Positions 54,114-61,543 of a DNA stretch of 64,000 nucleotides are shown here, piece by piece. Under the pieces are notes generated by a model, which was not told the DNA's origin, did no database searches, and worked only from the letters and a program-made list of their open reading frames with translations. The position numbers were made by a program, and so were the translations under genes. The DNA is taken from assembly GCA_027484605.1 (NCBI GenBank), contig JAIXSR010000087.1, positions 43,898 to 107,897 on the forward strand. Reading direction: 5' to 3'. The stretch is from Hyphomicrobiales bacterium (GTDB lineage Bacteria > Pseudomonadota > Alphaproteobacteria > Rhizobiales > Beijerinckiaceae). Position 1 is the first letter of the stretch; each line of letters begins with the position of its first letter.

Positions 54114-54794
54114 ATGCCGGAACTATCTGAAATCGTTCTGTTCGATGGCCTCGATACCGCATCGATCGCTGCGTTGGAACAGGCCGTGATCGTGCGCCGC
54201 TATGCCGCCGGGAAGGCGATCATCAGCACGGACGAACCCAGCACGGACATCTTTTTCGTGCTGACGGGACGTGTCCAGGCCAAGCGCTATGCGCCGGATG
54301 GCCATGAAGTGGTCTATCTCGACATTTCCGAGGGTTCGTATTTCGGGGAATTCGCAGCCATTGACGGTCAAACCCGTTCCGCCGATGTTATCGCTATCAG
54401 CGAGGCCCGGATCGCGCGCATGCGCGGCGACCAGTTCAATGAATTCGTCCTGCGCAACCCACGGATCGGGCTGAATCTTTCCCGCGAGCTGGTCCGCAAG
54501 CTGCGCGACCTTTCCGCCCGCGTCTTCGAATTCACGGTCTATCCCGTGCCGATCCGCATCCGGAAGGCGATCCTCCGTCTCGCCGAACAGGCGCGGCGGC
54601 CGGGCAGCATCTGCATGATCAGGCCGGCGCCGACCCACTACGAGATCGCCGCCCTGACGGCCACGCATCGCGAGGCGGTAACCCGCGAACTGGCTTCGCT
54701 CGCATCGCAGGGCATCCTGAAGACCGGCCGGCAGACGATCGAGATCCTTGACCTGCCCCGTTTGCGCGCCCTGGCCGATCCGGAACAAGACTGA
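54114..54794 (+). CDS. Crp/Fnr family transcriptional regulator
   Basis: cNMP-binding cassette YFGEFAAIDGQTRSADV; HTH YEIAALTATHREAVTRELASLASQGILK. Confidence 0.93.
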   Translation: MPELSEIVLFDGLDTASIAALEQAVIVRRYAAGKAIISTDEPSTDIFFVLTGRVQAKRYAPDGHEVVYLDISEGSYFGEFAAIDGQTRSADVIAISEARIARMRGDQFNEFVLRNPRIGLNLSRELVRKLRDLSARVFEFTVYPVPIRIRKAILRLAEQARRPGSICMIRPAPTHYEIAALTATHREAVTRELASLASQGILKTGRQTIEILDLPRLRALADPEQD

Positions 54795-54812: not shown

Positions 54813-56903
54813 TCATCCCGGAAGCTGGCCATTGCCCCGTCGCGCATCCGGGGCCGGAACCGGGGCATCCACCAGCATCGATGCGAAGGCCACCTTCGGC
54901 TGGCGGCGCTGGAAGCGTCTGATCGAGCGGGCAATGGCCCGCGTCGCCATGGCAGCGGCCATGCTGGTGCCGTACAGCCGGATCGAGCCGGCAGCCCGCA
55001 TCCCCGAGGACAGGCAGCCCCAGAGCAGCACGGAATCATCGGCGGCCACAAGGCCATCCACGCCGTTCGGCCATTCCGGCCGGCCGCCGCCCGAGTAAAG
55101 CGAGACGTCCACCGGGAAACTGCGCCGCGCCGGGCAGGAGCCGATCACCAGCGTCCGCGGGCCCGTGGCCAGCGCATTCAGCGCGCCGGGGCGCTGGACC
55201 GGGCTGTTCTCCTGCGAGCCATCCCCGGGCTGTCGGGGCGGGTCGAAAGCGCGGTAATCCGGATGGCGGAAGCGCGACTGCCGCGAGGGCCGCGTGGTGG
55301 CGACCGGCAGGTCATCGCGCTGGACCCAGGCCTCGATCGCTTCGTTCCGCAGTAATCCTGTCGCTTCGACCTTGATCTGCCAGGCACCGCTGGCGGCACG
55401 ATGGACGGCATCGGCCTGTGTCGGCCCGACCACAAGCTGGAACAGGCCACGGGGTCGCGAGGCCTGGGGCGCACAAAAGAGCACCATGGCCGCCGGCATC
55501 CCGGAACGGCCGGGCAGTTCCGCGACATCGCCCTTCCTGTTGGCGAGGCGGATCGATTGCCCGGACGGCGCGGTAAGCGTGATATGCGCCTTGCCCCGGA
55601 ACCCGCGGGGCAGCCAGATCTGCACCGAATTCGCGCTGCCATCATCCGGCGGAATCTCCCAGGCAAGGCTGGCCTTGGCCGGATTGGACAGGGCATGGCG
55701 ATCCCATTGGGCAAAGGTCTGCGACTGGTAGCCATTGCCGGCGGGGAGCACGATCACCAGCGGCGAGCGCGGATGCGCGCGGCTCCATAGCGTCTGCATC
55801 TCGAAAAGCGCCTTTTCGAGCGGCCCTTCGCCATCATGCGGGCCGGCATTGAACCCGTAGCTCATGTTGACAACCACCGGCGGCACGCTGCCGACTGGTC
55901 CGGAGGCCTGGCGTGCGGGCTTGCCCTCGTCGAGCACGAAGAGCGGGGAGGGCGGCGGATGCGCCGCGTCCTCCGCTTCGGCGAGGATGAAGCGCATGGC
56001 ATCGAAGGCATGGCCGGAAAGGGCCGCGCCGGAGCTGTCATCCACCGTGGTCTTCGGCAGGTGGACCGCAACAACCGGCTCCGTGCCGTCAAGCGGTGAC
56101 GCAGCTTCGAGAGCCAGTCCGGAGACATGGGCGCCGTGGCTTGCGGAGAGCTGCGTCCAGTAGCTGTCCCGGTCCTGGCTGCGGAAAAGGCCGGCCGAGG
56201 CATAGAACCGGTCTTCGTCGCCATCGACCCTGGCGAGATGGCGCACGATTCCTTCGCCCGTCAGTGCCGCGCCGTAATCGAATCCGGCCGGGTTGGCGAG
56301 GCCGTGGCCGGGATGGGGCGCGACCGGCTTTCCGTCCTGTACCCAGAGGGCACGAACGCGCGTCGCCCAGCCGGAGGGGGTTCCTGCCCGGCGCGAGAAG
56401 ACGGGGCTGGCCACCGGAAAGCCGTGGTCGATGATCCCTGTGAGCACGCGGATCGCGGATGGCGCGCCCATCGGCGCGGCCATGGCCATCGCGTTCGGGC
56501 GGCCGGCGGCCGGTTGGCCATCGATCGCCTGGCAGAGCGTGATTTCGTCGAACAGCGCCTGGACCGAAGTCGAGGCGAGCAGCCAGTCGAAGAAGAGGGG
56601 CAGCGCCCGTGCGGTCAGGTAGCGGGCCTTGGCCCAGGTGCCGCCCGTGGCCTGGGCGCAATCCAGCGTCTGATGCCATTGGGCGATCGTGACGCCGCGG
56701 CCCTGATGGACGAAGAGCCGGTTCGGATCGGCCGCATGCCGGAAGCTCCGCAAGGCTGCGAGGTCGATCCCGTCGGCCAGCCGGATGAGAAGCATGATCC
56801 GCCCGTTCGGCGATCGGGCCGTTTCGGGGCGGATCCAGTCGGCCAGCGGGTCCATGGCCAGCGGGAGCGACTGATAGGCACTGGTTGCGGTCCGCCAGGT
56901 CAT
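54813..56903 (-). CDS. S8 (subtilisin-like) serine protease
   Basis: Catalytic motifs GIIDHGF (Asp), SHGAHVSG (His), YGTSMAAAMA (Ser); no obvious signal peptide. Confidence 0.85.
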   Translation of the reverse strand: MTWRTATSAYQSLPLAMDPLADWIRPETARSPNGRIMLLIRLADGIDLAALRSFRHAADPNRLFVHQGRGVTIAQWHQTLDCAQATGGTWAKARYLTARALPLFFDWLLASTSVQALFDEITLCQAIDGQPAAGRPNAMAMAAPMGAPSAIRVLTGIIDHGFPVASPVFSRRAGTPSGWATRVRALWVQDGKPVAPHPGHGLANPAGFDYGAALTGEGIVRHLARVDGDEDRFYASAGLFRSQDRDSYWTQLSASHGAHVSGLALEAASPLDGTEPVVAVHLPKTTVDDSSGAALSGHAFDAMRFILAEAEDAAHPPPSPLFVLDEGKPARQASGPVGSVPPVVVNMSYGFNAGPHDGEGPLEKALFEMQTLWSRAHPRSPLVIVLPAGNGYQSQTFAQWDRHALSNPAKASLAWEIPPDDGSANSVQIWLPRGFRGKAHITLTAPSGQSIRLANRKGDVAELPGRSGMPAAMVLFCAPQASRPRGLFQLVVGPTQADAVHRAASGAWQIKVEATGLLRNEAIEAWVQRDDLPVATTRPSRQSRFRHPDYRAFDPPRQPGDGSQENSPVQRPGALNALATGPRTLVIGSCPARRSFPVDVSLYSGGGRPEWPNGVDGLVAADDSVLLWGCLSSGMRAAGSIRLYGTSMAAAMATRAIARSIRRFQRRQPKVAFASMLVDAPVPAPDARRGNGQLPG

Positions 56904-56934
56904 GGGCGCCTCCCTTCCGCTGCGTTCAGGGCCG

Positions 56935-58161
56935 TCAGGCCCATTCCGCCAGGGCTTTCTGCCAGAGCCAGGCAAGAATGCCGGACGAGCCGAGCGTCAG
57001 CCGCGCCTGGACGCTCAGGCCTGCCACAACAGCCGGCCCTTCAGCCAGCGGCGGGTTGATCGTCGGGCCATCGGCGATATCCATCTGGCGGACAAGGGCG
57101 GCATGGTCGAAAAACCCGTCAGGCTCATCGTCGCAGAAGGTGGCGGCGTCGAAATGCCAGGAATGGCAGGAAGCTTCCGAGCCCTGGCACCGGGCCGCGA
57201 GATAGCGGGCCAGCGCGATGCCGAGAACGGCGCCGGCGGCGCTGTCGACAGGGTAATGCACCCCCGCCACCATTCGGTTATAGGCAATGCGATCCGCGAG
57301 CTTGAACAGCCTGTCGCGCCACGGGCGATCGGCCTGGCGGGCGCCGGCCTTTTCCAGCAGCGCGACCAGCATGGCCACCATCGCGAAGGATTCGGTCGCA
57401 TGGCCGCTCGGCAACGTCCCATGCAGCGGCGTGGGAATGACCGGGTTGATCTGCGGCGAGAGCTCGTGCGGACGCGGCAGGGAAAAGGCATGCTTGAAGG
57501 CCATTTCCACGAAGACGCAAAGCCGGAACGTGGCCGCCAGAAGTTCCAGCGTCCATTTCGTCCTTTCTTCCGAAAGCGGCACGAACATGCCGAGGAAGGG
57601 CAGCGGAACCGGGATCTGGGCGAGAATTTCATGGATCCGGTCGCCCCGCAGCAGCGCCGCATTGGCCACGAGGGCCAGCTGGCGGTCCCCGAGCTGCGGG
57701 ATACTTGGCGGAACGAGCGTCACGATCGGATCATACTGTGCGGAAAGATGCGGGCCGCCGGGTTCGGTTGTCCAGCTCTGCTGGGCCGAATGGACGACGA
57801 AGGCGCGCGGATGGGCCGGATCCGGCGAGAAGGCGATCTGCGAGAACAACTCGCCATCGAGGATCCGCGCCCGGACATCGCTGGACCAGCGCGCAAGGCT
57901 GTCCTGCTCGGTCGCGGGGACCGGCCCGGGCAGCGTCGCGGGCGGCGCATACAGTCCGGACAGCGCGTCATGGATGGTCAGGACGCTGCCGGGCGAGCCA
58001 TTCCAGCTGCCGGCCAAACCGTTCAATCCGTTGAGGCCATTGAGCCCGTTCAGGCCATTGAGCCCGTTCAACCCGTTGAGCCCGTTGAGTCCGTTCAGGC
58101 CATTGAGCCCGTTCAGTCCGTTGAGGCCATTGAGCCCGTTCAATCCATTGGCAAACGACAT
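56935..58161 (-). CDS. PAP2 / vanadium-haloperoxidase-like phosphatase with N-terminal (Asn-Gly-Leu)15 repeat
   Basis: KHAFSLPRP, LPSGHATE, RMVAGVHYPVD acid-phosphatase/haloperoxidase motifs; N-terminal NGL repeats. Confidence 0.85.
   Translation of the reverse strand: MSFANGLNGLNGLNGLNGLNGLNGLNGLNGLNGLNGLNGLNGLNGLNGLAGSWNGSPGSVLTIHDALSGLYAPPATLPGPVPATEQDSLARWSSDVRARILDGELFSQIAFSPDPAHPRAFVVHSAQQSWTTEPGGPHLSAQYDPIVTLVPPSIPQLGDRQLALVANAALLRGDRIHEILAQIPVPLPFLGMFVPLSEERTKWTLELLAATFRLCVFVEMAFKHAFSLPRPHELSPQINPVIPTPLHGTLPSGHATESFAMVAMLVALLEKAGARQADRPWRDRLFKLADRIAYNRMVAGVHYPVDSAAGAVLGIALARYLAARCQGSEASCHSWHFDAATFCDDEPDGFFDHAALVRQMDIADGPTINPPLAEGPAVVAGLSVQARLTLGSSGILAWLWQKALAEWA
58015..58149 (-). repeat. 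15 tandem 9-bp units encoding Asn-Gly-Leu
   Basis: Counted directly: 135 bp = 15 x 9, all encoding NGL with varying synonymous codons. Confidence 0.97.
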
Positions 58162-58176
58162 GCGGACCTCCTGTCT

Positions 58177-59973
58177 TTAATGTTCTGGTATGCCGGCGCC
58201 GCGCAGGCCTCCGGCGAGCCGGCGGCCGACATCGAAATCGGCGGCCGGGGATTTGGCGAGCCAGCGCTCGACCGTCAGATTGGGCTCGATCATGCGGAGG
58301 GTCTCGGCGGAGGCCCGCGCCTCGGCCGGCCGGCCGAGATGCCAGAGCGCGGCTGTCCTGACACGGCTTCCCGAGGGATAGAGCCGGTTGGCGCGGATCG
58401 CCTCGTCGGCATGGGCGAGGGCGACATCATAGAGACCGGCCGAGAAGGCCGAGGAGGCGGCAATCGCCTCGAAATAGTAGCGATGGGGGTCAAAGGGCGA
58501 GAGCGCCATCGCGCGCCGCGCGATCGGGTAGGCTTCCTCGCCCCGGTCCGTGAATTGCAGCAGCGCCGCATTGTGCAGGAGGGCATAGGTCTCGTTCGGG
58601 TTGAGTTCGCTGGCCCGCTCGAGGAATATCGCTGCCTCGTCGAAATTCCGGGCGAAATTCGTCTCGATCAACCCGGCAACGGCGAGTGCCAGCGGATTGT
58701 CCGGGTCAAGATCCATCGCCCGCCTTGCGAGAGCCTGGGCCTCGCGCCCTTCCGCTGCAGGATCATCGGAAAACCCCTTCTGGACCTTGATCGTGTACCA
58801 GCAGGCGAGCCAGGCCTGCGGCAGTGCCTCGCGGGGATGGCGCTCCGCCAGGGCAGCAAGGATATCGGCCGCATAGGTGAAGTCCTGCCGGGCAGCCCGG
58901 TGCATCATGCTGACCGCGCCGACCAGCAGGGAATGGCTCTCGAGATTCGGCAGCGTCTGACGGCGGACACGCTGGACCTCGTTCCGCAGGACCGCGCGCA
59001 GCAGCCCTGCAATGAACCCGTCGAACCCGTGGAATTCGGACGTGATCAGGGCCTCGGCCGGCATCGAGAAGCGTTGTTCCAGCCGCACCAACCCTGTTTT
59101 CCGTTCGGTCAGTTCCAGCGTCGCCCGAACCCGGTCCTGGATGGCGGAATAGCTGCCCGATACGATGTAGTCGGCCTGCAGGGCCTCTGCCGCGAGGCCC
59201 GGCGACAATGCCCGCTGCCGGGCCACCGAGGCCGAAAGCCGCGAGATGACGTTGAGATAGGGCGATCCGGACAAAGCCGAGATCAGTTCGTCGGCAATGA
59301 TGTCGCCCAGAACGTCTCGCGCCGGGCCGCCCTGGATCGGCATGAGCGGCACCACTGCGATGGTGGGCACGAGCTGGGCATCCTTGCGGGCCGGCATGGC
59401 GGGCGGGCGCCTTATGCCGACGGGACGGAGGGCATAGGCGCGGATGGGAGCCTCCAGATGCTTGAGGTAGCAGGCGCCGAGATCCTCGATATCGGCATCG
59501 ACGCCGTCGACCATCTCGCCGCGCACATCTTCCGAAACGATAATGGCGCTCGGCATGCCGAGCCCGGCAAGCCGCGCCGCGAGATTGACGGCTTCCCCGT
59601 AGACATCCTGCCGGTCCGAGAGGAATTCGCCCCGCGCCATGCCGACACGGATGGCGATCGGCAGGGCGCCGGCCAGATCGGCATTGGCCCGCTCGACAAT
59701 GGCCATCGCCTCGAAGAGCGAACCCATTGCCGCGCGCGGCTCTGAGAACTGGCCGATGATCCCGTCGCCGGTCGAGCGGATCACACGGCCGCCGCCCTTG
59801 GCAAAAAGCGCTTCGATGGCCTGCCGCTGCTCGATCCACCGGGTGATGAACAGCCCGCCATCCCGCGCCGTCAGCCGGACCGATTCCATCACGTCGATAA
59901 AGACGATGACGCCACTCGACCAGGCGAGATCGCCCGTCGCGAACCGATGAAGTGCCGAACCCTCATCCGCCAT
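58177..59973 (-). CDS. Class III adenylate/guanylate cyclase with C-terminal TPR-like region
   Basis: VIVFIDVMESVRLTARDGG, VIRSTGDGIIGQFSEP, YGEAVNLAARLAGLG; then TolB-like and TPR repeats (ARRAMDLDPDNPLALAVAGL). Confidence 0.92.
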   Translation of the reverse strand: MADEGSALHRFATGDLAWSSGVIVFIDVMESVRLTARDGGLFITRWIEQRQAIEALFAKGGGRVIRSTGDGIIGQFSEPRAAMGSLFEAMAIVERANADLAGALPIAIRVGMARGEFLSDRQDVYGEAVNLAARLAGLGMPSAIIVSEDVRGEMVDGVDADIEDLGACYLKHLEAPIRAYALRPVGIRRPPAMPARKDAQLVPTIAVVPLMPIQGGPARDVLGDIIADELISALSGSPYLNVISRLSASVARQRALSPGLAAEALQADYIVSGSYSAIQDRVRATLELTERKTGLVRLEQRFSMPAEALITSEFHGFDGFIAGLLRAVLRNEVQRVRRQTLPNLESHSLLVGAVSMMHRAARQDFTYAADILAALAERHPREALPQAWLACWYTIKVQKGFSDDPAAEGREAQALARRAMDLDPDNPLALAVAGLIETNFARNFDEAAIFLERASELNPNETYALLHNAALLQFTDRGEEAYPIARRAMALSPFDPHRYYFEAIAASSAFSAGLYDVALAHADEAIRANRLYPSGSRVRTAALWHLGRPAEARASAETLRMIEPNLTVERWLAKSPAADFDVGRRLAGGLRGAGIPEH

Positions 59974-60171
59974 CGACGCCCCCTGCCAATCGGATCGGGA
60001 AGCGAGGCTAGGCAGTTTCGAAGCCGATGTCACGCTGTGCCGGCCGGCCACCGGCGCGGCTGTCCGGGCCGGTCGGGGGGGCTGCATCAGGCATTCGGTC
60101 GGAGGTGAGGGCATGATGCTCTGGCTTCGGAACGGCGGGTCCGGCCATCCTTGCATCTCTGCCCGGGCGAT

Positions 60172-60189
60172 CTGTGGGAAAACCCACAG
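60172..60189. promoter_or_regulatory. CTGTGGG-AAAA-CCCACAG perfect palindrome; CRP-like (TGTGG-N6-CCACA) candidate site between cyclase and TMEM43 genes
   Basis: Perfect 7-4-7 inverted repeat in the 370-bp divergent intergenic region. Confidence 0.6.
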
Positions 60190-60343: not shown

Positions 60344-61543
60344 ATGGCTGAAGACGAAAGGTTCAGAACCGAGGAATCATTCACGATCCCTGCCGAAGGG
60401 GCTGCCGGGGAGGATGTACATGCCGCGCCGCAGGGCTTCCTCGAGCGCCTGTCGAACAGTTTCGGCGCCATCCTGATGGGATTGCTGCTGGTGCCGCTCG
60501 CCTGCTGGGGCCTCTTCTGGAACGAGGGCCGCGCCGTCAAGACCGCCCGGGCGCTCGAGGAAGGCCAGGGGCTCGTCCAGTCGGTCGGCACCCAGCGCCG
60601 CGACCCGGCCTTTGACGGAAAGCTCGTCCATGTCACGGGCGCGGTGCGCTCGGACAGCGGCGTGCAGGATGACCTTTTCGGCATCCGGTCGCGGGGGCTG
60701 AAGCTCTATCGCAAGGTCGAGATGCTGCAATGGGTCGAGAAGGAATCCGGATCGGGGCAGGACCGCAAGTTCACCTATTCCCAGGAATGGAGCGACCGGC
60801 CGGTCGATTCCAGCCGGTTCCGCGTGACGCAGGGACACCAGAACCCGCCGATGCGCTGGTCATCCGAGACGTTCTTCGTGCGAGACGCTAGAATTGACTC
60901 CTATCCTATTGGAAACGCCATTCAAAGACTCTCCGGGGCCACGGATTTCCGCCTCGATCCGGCGGTCGTGGAAACGGCCCGCCGCCGCACGGGCTCTTCC
61001 CTGACCATGCGGGACGGGATGCTCTTTCTGGCCAACAACCAGAACGGCACGCAAGTGGGCAGCCTGCGGGTCAGCTACCAGCTCCTGCAGGAAGGCACGG
61101 CGAGTTTCGTCGGACGCCAGACTGCAGATGGAATCGAGCCCTACAAGGCCCGGAACGGCCGCGATTTCCTTCTCGCCGCCAATGGCACGCGCACGACCGA
61201 CGAGATGTTCGAAACGGCCCAGCAGGACAATGCCATCCTGACCTGGATCCTGAGGGCCGTGGGCCTCTTCGTGATGTTCATCGGCTTTTCGTCGCTTTTC
61301 GCGCCGGTCACATTGCTGGCAAGCTATGTTCCGCTGCTCGGAAGCCTTGTCAGCGGCGCTGTAGGCCTCGTGGCCGCGGCCGCGACGGCGATACTCGGGC
61401 CGGCTGTCATCGCCGTGGCATGGTTCGCCTATCGCCCGCTTGTCTCGATCATCGTGCTGGCCATCGGTTTCGGCCTCGCCTTCGGCTTCCGGATATTGCG
61501 CCAGCGCCGGCAGGCCGCAGCGCCGCGAGGCGCCCCGGCCTGA
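60344..61543 (+). CDS. TMEM43 family membrane protein
   Basis: SFGAILMGLLLVPLACWGLFWNEGRAVKTARALEEG; ARNGRDFLLAANGTRTTDEMFETAQQDNAILTWILRAVGLFVMFIGFSSLFAPV. Confidence 0.85.
   Translation: MAEDERFRTEESFTIPAEGAAGEDVHAAPQGFLERLSNSFGAILMGLLLVPLACWGLFWNEGRAVKTARALEEGQGLVQSVGTQRRDPAFDGKLVHVTGAVRSDSGVQDDLFGIRSRGLKLYRKVEMLQWVEKESGSGQDRKFTYSQEWSDRPVDSSRFRVTQGHQNPPMRWSSETFFVRDARIDSYPIGNAIQRLSGATDFRLDPAVVETARRRTGSSLTMRDGMLFLANNQNGTQVGSLRVSYQLLQEGTASFVGRQTADGIEPYKARNGRDFLLAANGTRTTDEMFETAQQDNAILTWILRAVGLFVMFIGFSSLFAPVTLLASYVPLLGSLVSGAVGLVAAAATAILGPAVIAVAWFAYRPLVSIIVLAIGFGLAFGFRILRQRRQAAAPRGAPA

Follow-up and report, generated by a model that had tools for sequence, protein, structure and literature searches.

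A conserved CRP-like palindrome as the probable operator of a neighbouring Crp-type regulator upstream of a nucleotide cyclase operon in a Hyphomicrobiales bacterium

The site recognized by CRP of E. coli is TGTGA-N6-TCACA. The same motif is protected by CgrA of Rhodospirillum centenum, whose ligand is cGMP, upstream of RC1_3785-gcyB-gcyC-cgrA, where a single site located at -188 and -43 to the two divergent genes activates both of them, with 258 genes altered in all (PMC4681086). Clr of Sinorhizobium meliloti, a cyclic-nucleotide-dependent Crp-type regulator, reads GTNNCNNNNGNNAC, a site also occurring in the promoter of the cyaF2 cyclase gene (PMC10127613). CgrA provides the closest known circuit to the one proposed here, and a feedback loop between a cyclase and a Crp-type regulator is already known from it.

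The window, that is, the whole stretch of 64,000 nucleotides analysed, carries on its reverse strand a three-gene operon encoding a class III nucleotide cyclase with a TPR-like C-terminus (58177-59973, PF00211), a PAP2 phosphatase-like protein (56935-58161, PF01569) and a subtilase-like S8 protein (54813-56900, weak match to PF00082), with PAP2 following the cyclase and S8 following PAP2 in most homologous loci. Convergent with the operon, a Crp-type regulator is encoded on the forward strand (54114-54794), its cNMP-binding (PF00027) and helix-turn-helix (PF13545) domains both scoring well above cut-off; this locus is conserved in all five own-clade genomes as well as in G182, from another family. 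On the other side of the cyclase, a TMEM43-family membrane protein is encoded by a divergent forward-strand gene (60344-61543, PF07787), its start having been deduced from that of its relatives. The cyclase retains the metal, Asn and Arg residues, and its purine-site Lys is an Arg in the own clade; in the majority of the remaining full-length cyclases from the cluster, the Lys is still present. At its N-terminus, the PAP2 protein carries a long (NGL)n repeat recognised by the Pfam collagen model; in the G006 homologue, the repeat is (GGV)n instead. The cyclase/TPR-PAP2-S8 cluster (54813-59973 here) recurs across Alphaproteobacteria (L145, L151, L152, L172-L184, L203-L208), and the TPR protein of several loci differs at its N-terminus, where no cyclase domain is recognisable (e.g., L144:5206-6849). 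A literature search for a cyclase/PAP2/subtilisin/Crp cluster found nothing.

As in the CgrA circuit, regulator and cyclase are clustered here, and the cyclase operon linked to the regulator is preceded by a Crp-type site situated between divergently transcribed genes. Unlike there, where cgrA follows the cyclase genes within one cluster, the Crp gene is convergent and placed at the far end of the operon, the half-sites end in G instead of the A of TGTGA, and, against the large CgrA regulon (258 genes), only two conserved intergenic candidate sites were found (cyclase/TMEM43 and mucR). The 16-bp geometry, the outer TGTG/CACA and the Arg/Glu/Arg of the recognition helix are shared with E. coli CRP, from which the system differs in the fifth base (G, not A), in having no A/T-rich flanks, and in a protein only 26% identical. 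Clr likewise is a Crp-type regulator with a site in a cyclase promoter, but the palindrome does not fit GTNNCNNNNGNNAC, its half-site TGTGGG being without the required C.

The proposed operator, CTGTGGG-AAAA-CCCACAG with core TGTGG-N6-CCACA, occupies positions 60172-60189, strand unassigned, where CTGTGGGAAAACCCACAG is found exactly, its arms being perfect over 7 bp around the AAAA centre. Within it, TGTGG-GAAAAC-CCACA (60173-60188) presents two symmetric half-sites 6 bp apart that fit TGTGR-N6-YCACA, and a G as fifth half-site base is also seen in several Crp-linked sites elsewhere. The sequence-only reading had already described this palindrome and its CRP-like 16-bp geometry, and both hold at these coordinates. 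The genome scan for TGTGG-N6-CCACA that it proposed returned one exact copy in the 64-kb window and one in the whole 4.0-Mb genome, versus two copies for the backward-read control pattern. The bare 10-base pattern is neither rarer nor more frequent than chance, and counting its exact copies in the own genome tells little; an early palindrome count with one mismatch allowed was flooded by GC-rich palindromes. The site is regarded as more than chance because it is conserved, not because the pattern is rare.

Four relatives, with cyclase identities of 87-88%, keep the entire block from endoglucanase to amidohydrolase, and all five genomes having the locus, which together represent one lineage, carry the palindrome at the orthologous position. 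Its loss from relatives retaining the locus, named beforehand as evidence against Crp control, was thus seen in none of the four. It reads CTGTGGCAAAACCCACAG in three relatives and CTGTGGGAATCCCCACAG in one; three of the four have C/C at the inner pair, and the kept part comprises the six outer pairs and the flanks GAT...G, conserved in all four. CTGTGG-N6-CCACAG occurs once per genome in each of the five, at this locus only. Phylogenetic footprinting of the intergenic region, also suggested earlier, showed palindrome and flanks to be kept while much of the surrounding spacer has diverged. A single match to the pattern in G005 was taken as chance; it overlaps an ORF that we take to read like Sel1 repeats.

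Regarding the regulator, alignment of its FGEF...TRSA with IGEL...ERSA of E. coli CRP indicates that the phosphate-binding cassette GE...RSA is kept, with Leu at the Thr127 position and Ser128 retained. The helix THREAVTREL, previously reported for this protein, was found there and is identical in the five genomes. It does contain the R-E-x-x-x-R pattern by which it had been tied to the palindrome, but as a link this is weak, the pattern being generic in the family and also present in another Crp of the own genome (CRREQITREL). Since R-E-x-x-x-R alone is not diagnostic, the Crp clade was queried for its own motif. Around 34 HREAV-type crp genes, all outside the genus, nine TGTGR-N6-YCACA sites were found at distances of up to 1.5 kb, corresponding to ~7 events as two pairs are not independent (the L199 duplication, and L076 with L079 from the same genus). 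For the same loci, 330 composition- and spacing-matched control palindromes gave a mean of 0.26 and a largest other count of 3, and first-order simulations averaged 0.28 and never exceeded 2, while 17 Crp loci without HREAV yielded one site versus 0.15 expected. A held-out matrix built on ten Crp-linked sites, none from the own genus, gave the palindrome the highest score of the 64-kb window, 19.9 bits, the next match reaching 10.6, and none of 200 simulated windows attained its score. The two sites in L199 (L199:999 and L199:1426) lie in a duplicated stretch just after the HREAV-type crp gene of G289.

The same arrangement is found in G182, where crp (49% identity), S8, PAP2 and cyclase follow each other in the order seen here. 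One site, TGTGATTTAGCCCACA, lies 76 bp upstream of its crp, and a second precedes the cyclase start by 206 bp, the equivalent distance here being 215 bp. In G028, a third lineage, crp is followed by TGTGGCAAAAACCACA and then by a class III cyclase, and the homologous cluster of G258, which has a distant Crp, is preceded by one site at 542 bp. No upstream site was found in 20 homologous clusters without Crp in the locus, some of them with another N-terminal domain replacing the cyclase, nor in G737, where an HREAV Crp is divergent to a cyclase that looks degenerate; similarly, no autoregulatory TGTGG-N6-CCACA was found in the crp promoter of the own genus. The proposed link between palindrome and Crp is carried by the motif enrichment, the held-out matrix and this other-family cluster, not by helix likeness.

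On the cyclase side, the long ORF from 60156 is probably over-extended, and the real start is likely the ATG at 59973, because substitutions in 59974-60156 are without codon periodicity (161/135/145, vs 168/48/954 in the cyclase gene). An N-terminal extension from 60156 was also considered as a coding reason for the conserved spacer, and was rejected for this lack of periodicity and for a 1-bp indel in G015. Counted from the ATG at 59973, the palindrome has its centre 207 bp upstream. A candidate cyclase promoter, GTGACA-N17-TAGCCT (TAGCTT in relatives; 60005-60033, reverse strand), is suggested by the pattern (A/G)TGACA-N17-TAGC(C/T)T, followed by 25 nt from the estimated start point to the ATG, in the five own-clade genomes and G182; a consensus promoter scan found none, this pattern falling below threshold. 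Its -35 is separated from the operator centre by 147-148 bp in the five genomes despite the diverged intervening sequence, and by 138 bp, about one helical turn less, in G182. Measured from the proposed start point, the operator lies ~182 bp upstream, a long way for a directly acting activator. Nearer to it, at ~29-34 bp from its centre and beyond ~10 variable bases, a block AGATGCAAG(G/T)ATG (60146-60158, reverse strand), invariant but for one base in the five genomes, includes a possible weak extended -10, TGC-AAGGAT (60152-60147), in the position expected for the -10 of a class II CRP promoter; a promoter role is possible for this block. Altogether, the intergenic region seems to be under stronger constraint towards the cyclase than towards TMEM43.

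The reading that best accounts for these observations, to which we assign a probability of about 0.75, is that the palindrome serves as operator for the Crp encoded at 54114-54794, which in its cyclic-nucleotide-bound form would control the cyclase-PAP2-S8 operon in a feedback loop. Here, (i) the cyclase (58177-59973) would make a cyclic nucleotide, (ii) Crp would bind it in its intact phosphate-binding cassette, (iii) the Crp dimer would read TGTGG-N6-CCACA through the Arg, Glu and Arg of THREAVTR, and (iv) its binding would alter transcription of the operon, closing the loop, with the divergent TMEM43 gene possibly co-controlled. What genome comparison shows is the conservation of the putative site, its association with the Crp clade and the cluster, its fit to the clade motif and its position ahead of the cyclase gene. 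Activation, as in the feed-forward of nucleotide production by the CgrA circuit, seems likelier than repression, since the proposed cyclase promoter is downstream of the site and not covered by it.

That the local Crp reads the site mainly on behalf of TMEM43 is unlikely, even though the TMEM43 start is nearer to it (~155 bp, against ~200 bp for the cyclase) and one CgrA site activates both of its divergent genes (PMC4681086). Among relatives, the distance separating the site from TMEM43 varies by ~20 bp, against 1 bp for the cyclase promoter; the block conserved beside the palindrome lies towards the cyclase; and the G182 cluster has no TMEM43, yet a site precedes its cyclase; moreover, TMEM43 homologues elsewhere in the genus (58-65% identity) come after a pbpC-like gene with the palindrome absent upstream. 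The sequence-only reading, which had placed the cyclase operon and/or TMEM43 under Crp feedback control, finds support in the genome comparisons, better for the cyclase than for TMEM43.

Recognition by a different regulator of the genome, either another Crp/FNR protein or an unrelated factor, might be expected from the generic nature of R-E-x-x-x-R and from the several other Crp-type helix-turn-helix proteins encoded, but it is rather improbable considering that the motif is enriched near HREAV-type crp genes and not near CRRE-type ones, that the site accompanies an HREAV Crp in another family, and that genus members without the site upstream of TMEM43 have Crp matches of low identity only. 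An RNA hairpin, either terminator or leader element, is very hard to reconcile with the data: the perfect 7-bp arms and the 4-base loop could pair, but neither a T-run terminator nor an Rfam match was found, folding was not clearly better than in shuffles (z -1.2 and -0.5), and the C/C change breaks the inner pair in three of the four relatives while unpaired flanking bases are conserved.

Operation of the palindrome as a Crp operator would give a predicted operator and first targets to an apparently uncharacterised Hyphomicrobiales Crp clade, would name the neighbouring cyclase as its likely input, and would provide the little-studied cyclase-PAP2-S8 cluster with a testable regulatory handle. 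A more specific proposal, doubtful at present, is that Crp forms a private channel with about two conserved operators and a nucleotide that is possibly neither cAMP nor cGMP, linked to MucR; it draws on the Lys to Arg change at the cyclase purine site and on the Leu at the Thr127 equivalent of Crp.

A conserved intergenic TGTGATATTT(G/A)TCACA lies upstream of a ROS/MUCR gene, both in the own genome and in four relatives (L125:4082-4097; G000:C82:20581-20596). With the Crp-clade matrix it scores 27.7 bits, above the cyclase-side palindrome; MucR may be a second Crp target and, because of this higher score, the main target may be other than the cyclase. Finally, TGTGAAAATTATCACA, of which no exact match was found in the own genome, appears in two relatives (L136:4052 and L137:4083) upstream of a gene for a predicted glycine/aspartate-rich, calcium-binding-type repeat protein.
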